IMG/VR virus record: IMGVR_UViG_3300039210_000045
Span: 1-41,133 of that record
DNA: 41,133 nucleotides
From: a virus
Direction: 5' to 3' (one strand)
The notes below the pieces were generated by a model, which did not search any database, had not been told where the DNA came from, and saw nothing but the letters and a program-made list of their open reading frames with translations. Position numbers and translations under genes: made by a program. Positions 7,717-35,592 of the stretch are shown here, in pieces. The first letter of the stretch is position 1. Each line of letters opens with the position of its first letter.

Positions 7717-9931
7717 TCTTATCAATAAACTTAATGACTCTGAAGATGCTAAGAAACTAGCAGCGTGGGTAAAGAGTGAGTATCAGAAATGTAAGTCTGC
7801 TAGAATTAAGCAAGAACGTCAATGGTATCTTAACATGGCATTCTATCGTGGATACCAGTGGGTTGCATATCTTAAAGGCCCTGGACAATCTATTTTAGGT
7901 GGGAAGTTATCACTTCCTAAAGCTCCCCCGTACCGTATTCGTTTAACTGTTAATCGTGTGCGTTCTATTGTACGTACTGAATTATCTCGTATGACTAGTA
8001 ATAAGCCTAATGCTAGTGTGGCTCCTGCAAGTTCAGAAGATGAAGATTTGTTTGCTGCTAGTGCTGCGGAACAAGTCTGGGAGTCAATGTATACTGAAAA
8101 CCATATAGCTAGAATTTATACTCGGGCTGCCTTTTGGCAGTCCGTTTGTGGTGTGGGTTTCATTAAAGATTGGTGGAACCCAAACGAAGTAGATAAATCA
8201 ACTGGTGAAATGGGAACTATCTGTTTTGCTCCTGTTACTCCTTTTCATTTGTTCGTACCTGACTTAGAACAAGAAGAAATAGAAGAACAAATATATATTA
8301 TTAATGCTTACACTAAATCAATTCTTTGGGTTAAACAGGCATATGGTCAAGATATGAAGCCTACCGTAGTTTCTGCTAGTGAACTTATGGATGAGGCTTT
8401 CCTCGACCTGTCGGGTTCTTCACAAGCTAAGCCTGATTCTTGTTTAGTATTAGAAATGTGGATGAAGCCTGGGGCACATAAAGATTTTCCTGAAGGTGGA
8501 TATATTACATTAGTAGATGATACTATTGTAGCTATCCATCCTGGACTTATGTACTCTCATGGAGAATATCCTTTCACAAAATTTGAGCATATTCCTACAG
8601 GAAAGTTCTATACTGAGTCAACTATTACAGACATTATCCCTGTTCAACGAGAGTATAACCGTACTCGTAGCCAGATTATTGAAGCTAAGAATCGTATGGC
8701 TAAACCTCAATTAATGGCTCCTAAAGGTTCTGTTAATGCTGCTAAGATTACATCAGAACCAGGAATTCTTATTGAATATCGGCCAGGTTTAGCACCACCA
8801 CAGCCATTACCTTTACAACCATTACCTAACTATGTGCTTCAAGAACTTGATCGTTCTATCTCTGATATGGAAGATATTAGTTCTCAGCATCAAGTTTCTA
8901 AAGGTCAAGCACCCGCAGGAGTTACGGCTGCTACAGCTATTTCGTTCCTACAGGAACGAGATGATAGTGTTATGGCTACAACTTATTCTAGTATTGAAGA
9001 AGGTTGGGAAAAGATTGCTAGACATACAATTTCCCACGTTGTTCAATTCTGGGATATTCCACGAATTGTTAAAGTTACTGGTGTAGATGGATCGTTTGAT
9101 GCTATCTCTCTTAAAGGTAGCGATATTAAGAGTGGAACGGATATTAGAATTGAAGCAGGTTCCGCATTACCTACTTCAAAGGCAGCTAGACAAGCATTAC
9201 TTTTAGATATGATGAAAATGAACTTCATTCCACCCGAAAAAGGTTTGGAAATGATGGAGATTGGTGGAGTTCAACGTGTCTATGAAGAACTTGCTATTGA
9301 TAAACGACAGGCTCAACGTGAAAATCTTCGTATGCGTAGACTTGATCTTATGCAGATTGAAGATCATCTTAAAGAAGTAGAAAGTGGAAAACAGTTTGCT
9401 AGTATGGCTGCTAGTTTACAAAGTCAGCAACCACCTAAAATGGATGATTTAGGTTTTCCTATTCAGCAAACTCCACCTACGCAACTTCCTTCTAAAGATC
9501 CTAATATGATTCCAGTACAACAGGATCAAGCACAAGCCAATCCAAATGCAGCACCAATACCGCCTGGGCTTATGCCACCACCGGCTAATCTTATTCCTGT
9601 TAATACTTGGGATAATCACGCTACACATATTGAAGTCCATAATAGATTCCGTAAGTCACAGCAATTTGAACAGTTACCAGAAGAAATTAAAGCTCAATTT
9701 GAATTTCACGTAGAAGCACATGCTCAAACATTAATGCAGAGTGCTACTAATGCTCAAGCTGCTATGGGCGGTCCTACTGATCCTAATGCTGGACTTCCTT
9801 CTAGTGGTAGTTCTGGCCCTGATGGTTCTAATCAGTTTGGTCCTCCTGGAACTGATAATGGTGCACCGCCTCCTAATGCACCTTCTCAAACTCCTGATCC
9901 AAATGCACAACAACTCCCACAGGTAGGTTAA
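7634..9931 (+). CDS. Portal (head-tail connector) protein
   Basis: A 765-residue podovirus-type portal. The N-terminal third has the typical pattern: RQWYLNMAFYRGYQW near residue 60, then an Arg-rich PPYRIRLTVNRVRS segment and a TSNKP turn near 125. The centre has the long stem and wing helices, including an ISSQHQVSKGQAPAGVTAAT region. The C-terminal 150 residues are Pro/Gln-rich and probably disordered. Twelve copies would form the ring through which TerL threads DNA. The start at 7634 is chosen because AGGAG lies 6 bases before it; inner ATGs at 7655 and 7676 lack such a site. Confidence 0.9.
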   Translation: MTMQMGQMNSLDSTQMNSAPQVGELSPDLINKLNDSEDAKKLAAWVKSEYQKCKSARIKQERQWYLNMAFYRGYQWVAYLKGPGQSILGGKLSLPKAPPYRIRLTVNRVRSIVRTELSRMTSNKPNASVAPASSEDEDLFAASAAEQVWESMYTENHIARIYTRAAFWQSVCGVGFIKDWWNPNEVDKSTGEMGTICFAPVTPFHLFVPDLEQEEIEEQIYIINAYTKSILWVKQAYGQDMKPTVVSASELMDEAFLDLSGSSQAKPDSCLVLEMWMKPGAHKDFPEGGYITLVDDTIVAIHPGLMYSHGEYPFTKFEHIPTGKFYTESTITDIIPVQREYNRTRSQIIEAKNRMAKPQLMAPKGSVNAAKITSEPGILIEYRPGLAPPQPLPLQPLPNYVLQELDRSISDMEDISSQHQVSKGQAPAGVTAATAISFLQERDDSVMATTYSSIEEGWEKIARHTISHVVQFWDIPRIVKVTGVDGSFDAISLKGSDIKSGTDIRIEAGSALPTSKAARQALLLDMMKMNFIPPEKGLEMMEIGGVQRVYEELAIDKRQAQRENLRMRRLDLMQIEDHLKEVESGKQFASMAASLQSQQPPKMDDLGFPIQQTPPTQLPSKDPNMIPVQQDQAQANPNAAPIPPGLMPPPANLIPVNTWDNHATHIEVHNRFRKSQQFEQLPEEIKAQFEFHVEAHAQTLMQSATNAQAAMGGPTDPNAGLPSSGSSGPDGSNQFGPPGTDNGAPPPNAPSQTPDPNAQQLPQVG

Positions 9932-11454: not shown

Positions 11455-12660
11455 ATGCCAGCTACCCTTGCGACCGTTGCCTCAATTCTTAAAGAAGTAT
11501 ATGAGCCGCAGATTCAAGACCAACTTAATGATGAAGCTGTTACGTTAAAACGTATCGAAAAATCCTCAGAAGGCATTACACATGAGGTTAATGGACGATA
11601 CGTTACGTTTGGAATTAAGACGAGACGTAACTCCGGTATTGGTGCTCGTAATGAAAACGAAGCACTTCCAAGAGCAGGTCAGCAGGGTTATGCTGCTGCG
11701 CGTGTTGGATTAAAGTATCTCTATGGTGCTATTTCCATCACAGGTCAGACTATTGATCTTGCTAATGATAACTACCAGGCTTTTACTTCTGCACTCGATG
11801 GAGAAGTTGAAGGTATTAAGACTGACCTTACTAAAGACCTTAACCGTGGTGTTTATGGTGATGGTCTCGGTACTGTGGCTACTATTTCTGTTACTGATGG
11901 TGTAGCATCAAATGTTTTTACTGTTGCAGATCCTATGTATCTTCAGCTTGGTGAAATGATTGATGTTTTTAATGCTGCTGGTGCTGTAGTTGTAATGTCT
12001 AATCGTCAGATTACAGCCATTAATACTATCACTGGTGTTGTTACCTTTGATGGTGCTGCTAGTGCTAAGACTGCTACTGATATTGTCGTCCGTACTGGTA
12101 ACGTCAATCGTGAATGGACTGGCCTTAAGAAGATCGTTAGCAACACAGGTGTTCTTTATAATATTGATCCTGCTGTAGAACCAGTTTGGAAATCATCTGT
12201 AGATACTGCTGGTGCTAATCGTGCGCTTTCTGAAGGTCTTATGATTAATATGGCTGACAGTATTCGTGCTCAGGGTGGTAAGACTACTGTTATCTTCCAG
12301 AACCTTGGTGTTCGTCGTGCTTACTTCAATCTTTTGGTTGCTCAGCGAGCATTTACTAACACTAAAGAGTTTGCTGGTGGCTTCACTGGACTCTCCTTTG
12401 TTACTGACTCTGGTGAAATTCCAGTAGTTATTGACATTGATGCTCCAAAGAATAAGCAGTTCTTCCTCAACGAGAAAGCGTTTACTCTTTATCGTCAGAA
12501 GGATTGGTCTTGGTTAGACCGAGACGGTTCAATGTGGCAGCGTAAGATTGACACTACTGGTACTTATGATGCTTGGGAAGCATATCTGCATCAGTATTCT
12601 GAGTTGGGTTGTCATCGTCGTAACTCTCAGGGTTACATTGATATGATTACGGAAGCCTAA
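11455..12660 (+). CDS. Major capsid protein
   Basis: A 401-residue coat protein. Its place after the scaffold, its length, and the pattern of an N-terminal helical region, a basic E-loop-like stretch (FGIKTRRNSGIGARNENEA near 72-90) and a long mixed alpha/beta body fit the HK97-type fold. Several hundred copies would build the icosahedral head. The codon choice is uniform and the gene is followed by a strong hairpin (12668-12708), as for highly expressed genes. The start ATG is 4 bases past the scaffold stop. Confidence 0.9.
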   Translation: MPATLATVASILKEVYEPQIQDQLNDEAVTLKRIEKSSEGITHEVNGRYVTFGIKTRRNSGIGARNENEALPRAGQQGYAAARVGLKYLYGAISITGQTIDLANDNYQAFTSALDGEVEGIKTDLTKDLNRGVYGDGLGTVATISVTDGVASNVFTVADPMYLQLGEMIDVFNAAGAVVVMSNRQITAINTITGVVTFDGAASAKTATDIVVRTGNVNREWTGLKKIVSNTGVLYNIDPAVEPVWKSSVDTAGANRALSEGLMINMADSIRAQGGKTTVIFQNLGVRRAYFNLLVAQRAFTNTKEFAGGFTGLSFVTDSGEIPVVIDIDAPKNKQFFLNEKAFTLYRQKDWSWLDRDGSMWQRKIDTTGTYDAWEAYLHQYSELGCHRRNSQGYIDMITEA

Positions 12661-12667
12661 TCTTAAC

Positions 12668-12708
12668 GTAGTGGGTCATGTTTAGTATGGAGAAGCATGA
12701 CCCACTAC
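12668..12708 (+). terminator. Hairpin after the capsid gene
   Basis: GTAGTGGGTCATG (12668-12680) and CATGACCCACTAC (12696-12708) pair perfectly over 13 bases with a 15-base loop, followed by TTTACG. It lies 8 bases past the capsid stop codon. It may be a partial terminator that lowers expression of the genes downstream, or a stem that protects the capsid mRNA. Confidence 0.8.
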
Positions 12709-12727
12709 TTTACGTAAGGAGAATAGC

Positions 12728-25145: not shown

Positions 25146-25730
25146 ATGCCTAATAAAGAAGATTCTAATGATGTGAAAAACTTTAGACTCATTGATCCAA
25201 CTAGAAATGTCCGACATACAATTAAAGAATCAGAAAAACGCCAAGATGACTTAAGAGGTATGGCACATAAGGCACTCAGAAATGAGGTCAAACTCGAAGT
25301 TAAATCCCTCCGAAGTGAACTCAAAGATTTCAAGTCGTTTATTAAAAAAATCAATGGAGCAGAATCAAAACGTATTGATGCTATTCGCGCTGTAGATGCC
25401 GCCAATGTAGTTATTGCTAATGCAGCCGCTGAAACCCGAGCATCAACACTCGCTAGTCAAGTAACAGATACAGCCACAGCTGCTAACGTTGCACTTAAAG
25501 CTGAGACTGATCCTATTCGTAAAAGTATTGATGAACTAAGACAGTCACAGTGGACAATTGCAGGAGGTTCACGACAAGAAGCAGAAACTAAAACTGATAT
25601 TATGGCTAAATCTAGTAATGTAGGTTTATGGGTTGGTATTGCTGCTGCTGTAGTGTTTGGTGTTACATCAGTAGGTTTTAATATAGTTGTTATTGCTATC
25701 TCGCTTTACTTAGGTTTAAGGAGTCCATAA
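25146..25730 (+). CDS. Coiled-coil protein with C-terminal membrane span
   Basis: A 194-residue protein: charged N-terminus, a helix from about 25 to 70, an Ala/Thr-rich coiled coil with the RIDAIRAVDAANV start (76-88), and one long C-terminal transmembrane stretch at about 158-190. Proteins of this layout are widespread near the lysis genes of actinophages and other phages and are often listed as holins or structural proteins. It overlaps the next holin-like gene by one base (TAATG). Membrane anchoring is clear; the exact job is not. Confidence 0.7.
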   Translation: MPNKEDSNDVKNFRLIDPTRNVRHTIKESEKRQDDLRGMAHKALRNEVKLEVKSLRSELKDFKSFIKKINGAESKRIDAIRAVDAANVVIANAAAETRASTLASQVTDTATAANVALKAETDPIRKSIDELRQSQWTIAGGSRQEAETKTDIMAKSSNVGLWVGIAAAVVFGVTSVGFNIVVIAISLYLGLRSP

Positions 25731-25954
25731 TGAAAGCATATTTAGCATGGGCTAAGAAAACAGTAGGAGCAGGGATTGCCTTCACTGTTCTTTGGTTGAG
25801 TACACTTACTACAGCTACAATTCCAAGTTGGGTACCTGTTAAATATCTTCCAGTAGTTACTTTACTAGTTGGATTAGCTGGTACATACTCTGTCTGGAAG
25901 TTAGAGAATGGTCCCAAGCCTACTCCTACGTTTGATCCACCAGTAGGTTCATAA
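25730..25954 (+). CDS. Holin-like protein, two membrane spans
   Basis: A 74-residue protein with two hydrophobic segments (about 9-28 and 37-56), a short turn between them, a basic N-terminus and a Pro-rich hydrophilic C-terminus. Size, topology and place at the end of the late operon fit a holin that opens the membrane for the endolysin. The endolysin itself is far away, on the other strand (36639-37475). The terminator hairpin follows 8 bases past the stop. Confidence 0.75.
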   Translation: MKAYLAWAKKTVGAGIAFTVLWLSTLTTATIPSWVPVKYLPVVTLLVGLAGTYSVWKLENGPKPTPTFDPPVGS

Positions 25955-25961
25955 TATACAA

Positions 25962-26010
25962 ATAAGGCGTCTAGTTATAGTCCCTTGACAGGGTATACTA
26001 GACGCCTTAT
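25962..26010. terminator. Bidirectional hairpin between converging operons
   Basis: ATAAGGCGTCTAGT (25962-25975) and ACTAGACGCCTTAT (25997-26010) are perfect 14-base inverted repeats. Inner pairs extend the stem, leaving the hexamer TTGACA in the apical loop (CCC TTGACA GGG). It closes the rightward late operon and lies in the path of the leftward operon. The same bases carry the -35 box of the whiB promoter. Confidence 0.85.
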
Positions 26011-26013
26011 CCT
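25985..26013 (+). promoter_or_regulatory. whiB promoter inside the terminator hairpin
   Basis: TTGACA (25985-25990) and TATCCT (26008-26013) are 17 bases apart. The whiB ATG is 6 bases past the -10 box and has no Shine-Dalgarno sequence, so a leaderless mRNA is inferred. The -35 box is in the centre of the inverted repeat, so any dimeric protein that reads the repeat would also control this promoter. Confidence 0.7.
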
Positions 26014-26019
26014 TGCTAT

Positions 26020-26442
26020 ATGGCTTCACGGCAGCGGGATAAGTGGGCATTTTTTGCTGCGTGCAAAGATATGAGTCCCGAAGAAGCTGACAAAATATTT
26101 TTTGATGTGAAACCTGGCAGACCTGCTTTAATTCAACCGTATGAAAAGATATGTGGAAATTGTCCCGTATGTAAAGAATGTTTTGATTGGGCCTTAGTCC
26201 ATAATGTAGAAGGTGTATGGGGGAATTCTAGTAAGGGCCAAAGAAATCATCCGTTTCTGAAAGAGTATAAGCAGGTTTTAACTGAACAGGCTGAGGTTGA
26301 GGGATGGTTGGAGAGTTATCCAGTATTTTATGGAGTTCTGCTTCCGACAGAGGATCAGGTAGAATTGGTTGAGGTTGTGTCGGTTCAGTTTCTATTAGAT
26401 TTCGAGATTGAAGTACAGTTACATATTTCTGTAGGTTCTTAA
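26020..26442 (+). CDS. whiB: WhiB-family iron-sulfur transcription regulator
   Basis: A 140-residue protein. The four cluster ligands are Cys15, Cys45, Cys48 and Cys54 (CGNCPVCKEC, with an extra Cys51), followed by the turn GVWGN (65-69; most relatives have GVWGG) and a short basic patch with Lys72 and Arg75. WhiB-like proteins bind a 4Fe-4S cluster and act with the main sigma factor. Phage copies are known to change host gene expression or exclude other phages. About 60 C-terminal residues beyond the usual domain are encoded opposite the 26228-26806 gene. The ATG directly follows a promoter without a ribosome site. Confidence 0.85.
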   Translation: MASRQRDKWAFFAACKDMSPEEADKIFFDVKPGRPALIQPYEKICGNCPVCKECFDWALVHNVEGVWGNSSKGQRNHPFLKEYKQVLTEQAEVEGWLESYPVFYGVLLPTEDQVELVEVVSVQFLLDFEIEVQLHISVGS

Positions 26443-26806
26443 AAGCTTGTGGGGGAATAACTAGCGGGGGTTCTTTAAAGCCCCATCGCTCATTTTCTGA
26501 CTTCATCCAATCCCAACTAACTCCTGTTTGACTACTGATTTCTTTTGCTCTACAGATATCAGTACAGTAAGCAACGTAACGATAATTAGTGCTAAAAGGC
26601 TCACCACATCGTTTACAGAGTTTAGCAGTAAATTTAGCAGGTTCTTCTAAGAACAATAGGACTGCCTCTCCCTGTCGGGAGATTGCATCTTGAAATGTGG
26701 GAGCCTCTGATATAGCTTCCTCAATAATTTCATGTTCAATACCATGCTTAAGCAGGAGTGCCTTGATCTTCTCAAGGTTACGTTCTTGCTTTAATTTTTC
26801 TCTCAT
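26228..26806 (-). CDS. Zinc-finger hypothetical protein
   Basis: A 192-residue protein. A charged helical N-terminus is followed by a treble-clef-type zinc finger with C64/C67 and C81/C85 (CKRCGEPF and YCTDICRAKE). The last 70 residues are Pro/Gln-rich. The 3' 215 bases lie opposite the whiB gene. It overlaps the preceding gene by 4 bases and is the last gene of the leftward replication operon. A DNA- or RNA-binding accessory role is plausible; no family is assigned. Confidence 0.7.
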   Translation of the reverse strand: MREKLKQERNLEKIKALLLKHGIEHEIIEEAISEAPTFQDAISRQGEAVLLFLEEPAKFTAKLCKRCGEPFSTNYRYVAYCTDICRAKEISSQTGVSWDWMKSENERWGFKEPPLVIPPQAFKNLQKYVTVLQSRNLIETEPTQPQPILPDPLSEAELHKILDNSPTIPQPQPVQLKPAYTLSETDDFFGPY

Positions 26807-35563: not shown

Positions 35564-35592
35564 ATTGTAGCAGATTGAAACTAGGGTGTCAA
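35564..35592 (-). promoter_or_regulatory. Strong leftward promoter of the replication operon
   Basis: On the minus strand TTGACA (35587-35592) and TACAAT (35564-35569) are 17 bases apart, almost the sigma-70 consensus. The 15 bases CATAACGCCTTGACA, ending with the -35 box, are shared with the promoter at 44-73. It drives the tRNA-like gene, the recombination genes and the replication genes down to 26228. It overlaps the 3' end of the gene that precedes it by a few bases. Confidence 0.85.

Follow-up and report, generated by a model that had tools for sequence, protein, structure and literature searches.

In the window, the whole 41,133-bp stretch of a record from a virus of actinobacteria (39% G+C) that was analysed, a leaderless primary-sigma promoter for a whiB gene and the intrinsic terminator at the meeting point of two operons are proposed to share one 65-bp stretch of DNA, a reading to which we assign a probability of roughly 0.72. 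The late operon runs rightward to 25954, and the replication operon, which encodes a helicase, an exonuclease, a primase, PolA and a RuvC-like resolvase, runs leftward to 26228. The whiB gene lies between both operon ends and is collinear with the late operon; as had been described in the original prediction, its last 215 bases (26228–26442) are antisense to the end of the leftward operon. The 65-nt gap that separates whiB from the late operon contains both an inverted repeat and the promoter boxes. The features of this region are as follows.

25730–25954, + strand: last small ORF of the rightward late operon, 74 aa; its stop lies 65 nt 5' of the whiB ATG.
25950–25961, − strand: U-rich tail serving leftward transcription, with the sequence TTATTTGTATATTAT when followed leftward from the foot of the stem; T-score 3.32.
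25962–25975, + strand: 5' arm of the hairpin, ATAAGGCGTCTAGT, a perfect complement of 25997–26010.
25982–25993, + strand: inner helix CCCT/AGGG with the −35 box at its apex, from RNA folds of both strands.
25985–25990, + strand: −35 box TTGACA, in the hairpin loop; in the same place in the related locus L003 and similar in L014 and L020.
25994–25999, + strand: TATACT, part of TATACTAG, which is common to the window and L003; a candidate second −10 box or other site, with no good −35 box for it in the window.
25997–26010, + strand: 3' arm of the hairpin, ACTAGACGCCTTAT, occupying most of the promoter spacer; 100% complementary to the 5' arm.
26008–26013, + strand: −10 box TATCCT, which shares bases with the 3'-arm foot and with the U-rich tail; supported by the box geometry of relatives.
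26020–26442, + strand: whiB, 140 aa, with an ATG that is also the predicted (leaderless) transcript start; Pfam Whib, E = 2e-10; no Shine-Dalgarno sequence.
26228–26442: antisense coding overlap of 215 nt, within the C-terminal extension of WhiB, whose core spans residues 9–76.
26228–26806, − strand: last gene of the leftward replication operon, with a Cys-rich C..C motif; PHROG 32248, E = 6e-13; conserved beside whiB in relatives.

Judged by its translated sequence, the window whiB is a real gene of the WhiB-like (Wbl) family. The product matches the Pfam profile with 41.5 bits against a curated cut-off of 23.6 (E = 2e-10), and the four WhiB cysteines (C15, C45, C48 and C54, in a C, CxxC, C arrangement) are invariant in the alignment. 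The G[VI]WGG turn reads GVWGN in the window, with the last G changed, and GVWGG or GIWGG/GIWAG in relatives. The WhiB proteins of the window (26118–26130, residues 33–37), L003 (10943–11320) and L010 carry, between their first two cysteines, a KPGRP/RGRP/KQGRP stretch that resembles an AT-hook core. The AT-hook of WhiB7 is C-terminal. With the WhiB proteins of other actinophages, such as mycobacteriophage TM4, whose WhiB inhibits host whiB2 (PMC8612146), the window protein shares the Pfam WhiB domain and the four cysteines. It is distant from them, however (about 35–39% over the core), and differs in its location at an operon collision point and in having a predicted promoter of its own.

The arms of the inverted repeat at 25962–25975 and 25997–26010 form a perfect 14-base match, in agreement with the original prediction. 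The real window contains two perfect repeats of at least 14 bases with a loop of at most 30, and none arose in 30 dinucleotide-shuffled copies of its full sequence; the inverted repeat is not there by chance. Relative to shuffles, RNA folding of the window hairpin gives z values of −4.1 and −6.3 on the two strands, and the hairpins of all five loci in which terminator and promoter are fused (see below) are much stabler than shuffles on both strands. TTGACA, named earlier as the apical loop, does sit at the apex above CCCT/AGGG, and RNAfold pairs its first T with its last A to leave a 4-nt loop.

From its anatomy, this hairpin is most likely an intrinsic terminator between two converging operons. 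The repeat had been taken to close the rightward late operon, which is possible but would be only half of its function. Because the leftward U-tail is the better of the two (T-scores of 3.32 leftward and 2.49 rightward) and no second hairpin lies between the leftward operon end and the late operon end in the window, the hairpin can serve both directions, and we infer that it probably terminates the leftward operon as well as the late operon. Like the bidirectional intrinsic terminators of convergent operons, it is a single strong hairpin at the meeting point, with U-rich tails on both sides in the window and in L020 (T-scores of 4.45 and 4.35). Unlike these, its loop and tail double as the −35 and −10 boxes of the next gene, and its tails are weaker than those of textbook terminators. 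This weakness counts against the proposed reading: the window tails are only moderately U-rich on each side, that of L010 is poor, and a terminator scan with short loops called no terminator at the hairpin.

Elsewhere in the window, a 20-nt inverted repeat (12664–12712, 90%, 9-nt loop) follows closely on the stop at 12660, midway along the late operon, and looks like an internal terminator or attenuator. Two more strong inverted repeats (1503–1534 and 494–532) are present near the left end, around the region between the divergent operons. An Rfam search of the window returned a tRNA as its sole match.

The closest PolA matches to the window are the phages of L010 (54%) and L003 (51%), and the wider PolA group includes the Arthrobacter phages Jasmine, Casserole and Brad and the Cellulosimicrobium phage DS1. 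The gene order at the collision point is kept among them: PolA, resolvase, the last leftward gene, whiB on the opposite strand and then the end of the late operon. The Jasminevirus phages of Arthrobacter (Jasmine, Casserole, Brad) share this order and a leaderless whiB promoter, and whiB and the last leftward gene of Jasmine overlap by 335 nt; in contrast to the window, their terminator hairpin is separate and lies about 95 bp upstream of the promoter. In DS1, an unannotated WhiB ORF (L005 14659–15078, − strand) is found at this collision point too, preceded by a strong hairpin that resembles a terminator.

No match was returned when phages were searched at the nucleotide level with the region, and whiB alone, used as a query against viral contigs, found no relative. 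Across an alignment of 11 whiB members, conservation was nowhere high enough to support a scan. Narrower PolA and resolvase scans gained hardly any closer relatives and a whiB sub-alignment scan gained L173, leaving the fused sample at five. Of the four stretches of the viral contigs in which the pattern TTGACANGGTATACTAG occurs, L003 is a genuine case. The others, L009 and the nearly identical pair L007 and L008 from one phage, lack whiB at the matching site and were discarded as chance hits. The whiB locus of L024 was given little weight since its contig is possibly a joined record: this contig (G009, 62 kb) contains two different terminase genes (8089–9483 and 55641–56996), possibly from two phages. 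In L020, L027, L031, L033 and L035, the DNA polymerase match is in two pieces, split near residue 210 into exonuclease and polymerase parts that are separated by a short gap or several kb, whereas the window polymerase is one ORF.

In the window, the whiB promoter has the spacing TTGACA, 17 nt, TATCCT, 6 nt, ATG (26020). This is the only site in the window where TTGACA-N16–18-TAnnnT directly precedes the start of a recognisable gene. A match to the bare consensus is no commoner than expected, with 11 promoter-like sites in 3.6 kb against 11.2 expected, and relatives are therefore needed to support the promoter. In 15 of 15 whiB loci, a TAnnnT box precedes the whiB start, at a distance of 6 nt in 13 of them and 7 nt in two, with a −35-like hexamer 16–18 nt further upstream, and none of the 15 has a Shine-Dalgarno sequence before the start. 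The same contigs contain 347 other long ORFs, and TAnnnT precedes six of these at a gap of 6 and ten at a gap of 6 or 7 (about 2–3%). A naive binomial estimate for this enrichment is ~1e-21, a value to be read as qualitative support only, given that the loci are related and that the start codon was picked among alternatives at some of them. The promoter block does not vary among three Jasminevirus genomes, in contrast to the roughly 65 bp immediately upstream, which do.

Based on this geometry, whiB very probably has its own sigma-A-type leaderless promoter, and the earlier claim of a dedicated promoter is thereby upheld. The predicted transcript start is at or adjoining the ATG, a leaderless arrangement that the earlier description did not include. 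In mycobacteria, nearly a quarter of transcripts are leaderless (PMC4633059). The whiB promoter resembles the leaderless primary-sigma promoters of actinobacteria in having its −10 box 6–7 nt before the ATG and no Shine-Dalgarno sequence; it differs in that the boxes lie within a strong inverted repeat and that the start is predicted from sequence. The next best TTGACA-type matches of the window (11 of 12 bases), at 35592, 40949 and 73, are all on the − strand and are candidate promoters of the leftward operon.

It could be argued instead that the hairpin is a terminator, that the promoter boxes are fortuitous and that whiB is expressed by read-through from the late operon. The collinearity of whiB with this operon and the frequency of bare promoter matches, which is the same as in shuffles, are in keeping with such an arrangement. 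We consider it very improbable, as box and spacing are kept in 15 of 15 loci against about 2–3% of other ORFs, and a read-through RNA would offer no Shine-Dalgarno sequence at whiB.

A leaderless start peculiar to whiB was considered and rejected: the first late gene has the same type of start in 10 of the 14 regions examined, including those of the window and Jasmine. Leaderless starts are, as far as promoter geometry indicates, a habit of this phage group, in line with the mycobacterial pattern. The first late gene is preceded by TTGCCC-18-TACTCT-6-ATG in the window (about 1904–1940) and by TTGACA-17-TACGGT-6-ATG in Jasmine (L178 1356–1397). Both of these late promoters contain TATGCTAC, which also occurs 18 nt before the whiB ATG of Jasmine; TATACTAG lies at the same distance in the window and L003. 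Common control of whiB and the late operon is possible.

These blocks bear on a second assignment of the boxes, in which TATACT (25994–25999) is the true −10 box, TTGACA-N3-TATACTAG is another element (a second promoter or a regulator site) and the whiB leader is about 13 nt long. The recurrence of TATGCTAC agrees with this assignment, as does the fact that TTGACA.GGTATACTAG is the main block identical between the window and L003. We nevertheless regard it as quite unlikely: 16–18 nt upstream of TATACT there is no acceptable −35 box (the best is TAGTTA), the resulting leader would have no ribosome site, and L010, L014, L020 and L024 lack the block yet have the box at a gap of 6.

The predicted leaderless promoter and the terminator are fused in 5 of the 15 whiB loci (the window, L003, L010, L014 and L020). 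In these five, the loop or upper stem carries the −35 box, and the −10 box is located at or just beyond the 3' arm. The L003 region CCTTGACAAGGTATACTAGTGGTGGTACACTTACGTTATG has the spacing of the window (TTGACA, 17 nt, TACACT, 6 nt, ATG), on a 17-bp hairpin whose arms TAAGTGTACCACCACTA are unrelated to those of the window. L014 has a perfect 16-bp stem, ATAACCCCTCTTGACA/TGTCAAGAGGGGTTAT, with the −10 box TATCTT at the stem foot; in L020, which has the stem AAAAACCCTATG/CATAGGGTTTTT, TTGACA runs from the loop into the 3' arm; and in L010, where the 15-bp stem is rich in G+C, the −35 box at the loop (TTGTAT) is weak. The arm sequences are unrelated among all five, with pairing kept. The dyad centres of the window and L003 are offset from each other by about 3 bp, so that arm positions are not homologous and do not lend themselves to a column-wise covariation count.

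In a further five loci (Jasmine, L021, L025, DS1 and L173), a separate hairpin stands between the late operon and the whiB promoter, and the last five have no strong hairpin counterpart. Repeat and promoter spacing, whose joint conservation the original prediction proposed to check, are kept together in L003, on an unrelated stem. In 10 of 15 loci the whiB promoter is kept unembedded, an outcome that the original prediction had named as refuting. The absence of fusion from 10 loci and of a strong hairpin from five, together with the weak −35 box of L010, weighs against the proposed reading. Because whiB occurs in these 10 loci without a hairpin-embedded promoter, embedding is not required for its expression. 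Fusion goes with compaction, since the gap from the upstream stop to whiB is 53–75 nt in the fused set and 131–222 nt in four of the five separate loci; the gap of L024 is 53 nt, without a strong hairpin. In PolA and TerL trees, L020 groups firmly with L027 and L031, neither of which is fused (100/99 and 100/100). For the four fused phages with a TerL, monophyly is rejected by the TerL data (AU p about 1e-6). The trees therefore imply either more than one gain of the fused state or its repeated loss.

This distribution also bears on the proposal that the region is a dedicated switch, in which WhiB or another protein binds the palindrome, leftward transcription gates whiB and the early or late programme is thereby decided. 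Consistent with such a switch are the perfect palindrome around the −35 box, the KPGRP/RGRP-like stretch in the WhiB of the window and L003, and an antisense coding overlap of 140–335 nt in 9 of the 12 phages checked. In addition, WhiB7 activates its own sigma-A promoter (PMC3905903), and control of its own promoter by the phage WhiB is, by analogy, possible. Against it, the coding overlap is absent from L020, L027 and L031, and the whiB promoter is kept unembedded in 10 of 15 loci. The original prediction further held that a protein would bind the repeat. Among relatives, the arms differ completely while their pairing is kept, which leaves no conserved binding site and makes a protein site in the repeat unlikely; a protein operator within it was rejected, as the stem sequence is not kept among the five fused loci. 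We therefore consider a dedicated switch unlikely: of the compact switch originally envisaged, the promoter part stands and the decision between programmes is weakened. From the comparison of loci, the fusion looks more like a way of saving space, possibly with some regulatory benefit, than like an obligatory switch.

According to the shared terminator and promoter proposed here, whiB would be driven by a promoter of the host primary sigma type, with an mRNA that begins at or adjoining the ATG and needs no ribosome site. The same 65 bp would form the intrinsic-terminator hairpin where the late and leftward operons meet, with the 3' arm filling the promoter spacer, an arrangement that would place the −35 box in the loop or the upper part of the stem and let the −10 box coincide with the stem foot and U-rich tail. 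In read-through RNA from the late operon, the whiB ATG would be internal and without a ribosome site, and little WhiB would be made, leaving the dedicated promoter as the only source of WhiB. Leftward transcripts that continue beyond the last gene would traverse whiB and its promoter before reaching the hairpin, and strong leftward transcription would lower whiB expression by occlusion or collision. Judged from the anatomy of the locus, such transcriptional interference with whiB is plausible. The arrangement resembles an excludon, or convergent overlapping transcripts (PMC7154746), in that a gene with its own promoter is antisense to the end of a convergent operon; it differs in that the overlap is not kept in all relatives and is seen here as a coding overlap.

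Bacterial RNA polymerase is known to undergo recycling termination, with re-initiation at the nearest promoter (PMC11347151). By analogy, a polymerase that releases the late (or leftward) transcript at the hairpin might stay on the DNA and re-initiate at the embedded promoter, a coupling that we view as speculative and rather improbable. The likeness lies in the close proximity of terminator and promoter; here, in contrast, both are on the same bases and the coupling is hypothetical. If it did occur, whiB output would track the termination rate of the neighbouring operon, the recurrence of the fusion with unrelated stems could be explained, and a promoter inside a terminator would be an extreme form of recycling termination.

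The single ingredients of this locus are already known, namely leaderless actinobacterial promoters, terminators between converging operons, excludon-like overlap (PMC7154746) and phage WhiB proteins (PMC8612146). For a promoter with its −35 box in a terminator loop and its −10 box at the tail, rebuilt on unrelated stems, no description was found in the literature searched, which does not prove that none exists; the papers found on these phages (PMC5513430, PMC8612146) make no mention of promoters or terminators. The proposed arrangement indicates that about 60 bp suffice for a phage to accommodate both a terminator and a leaderless promoter. Terminator arms and promoter spacers are similar in length, which allows the loop to serve as the −35 box and the tail as the −10 box. 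Given the unrelated stems and the absence of a single clade of fused cases, evolution seems able to arrive at the fused state repeatedly, and annotation that seeks terminators and promoters separately can easily overlook such double elements. Finally, the fused, separate and hairpin-free whiB loci form a clean comparison set, with the separate version available in cultivable Arthrobacter phages, that is suited to studying a possible feed from termination into initiation at embedded promoters and a possible control of phage WhiB by convergent transcription.
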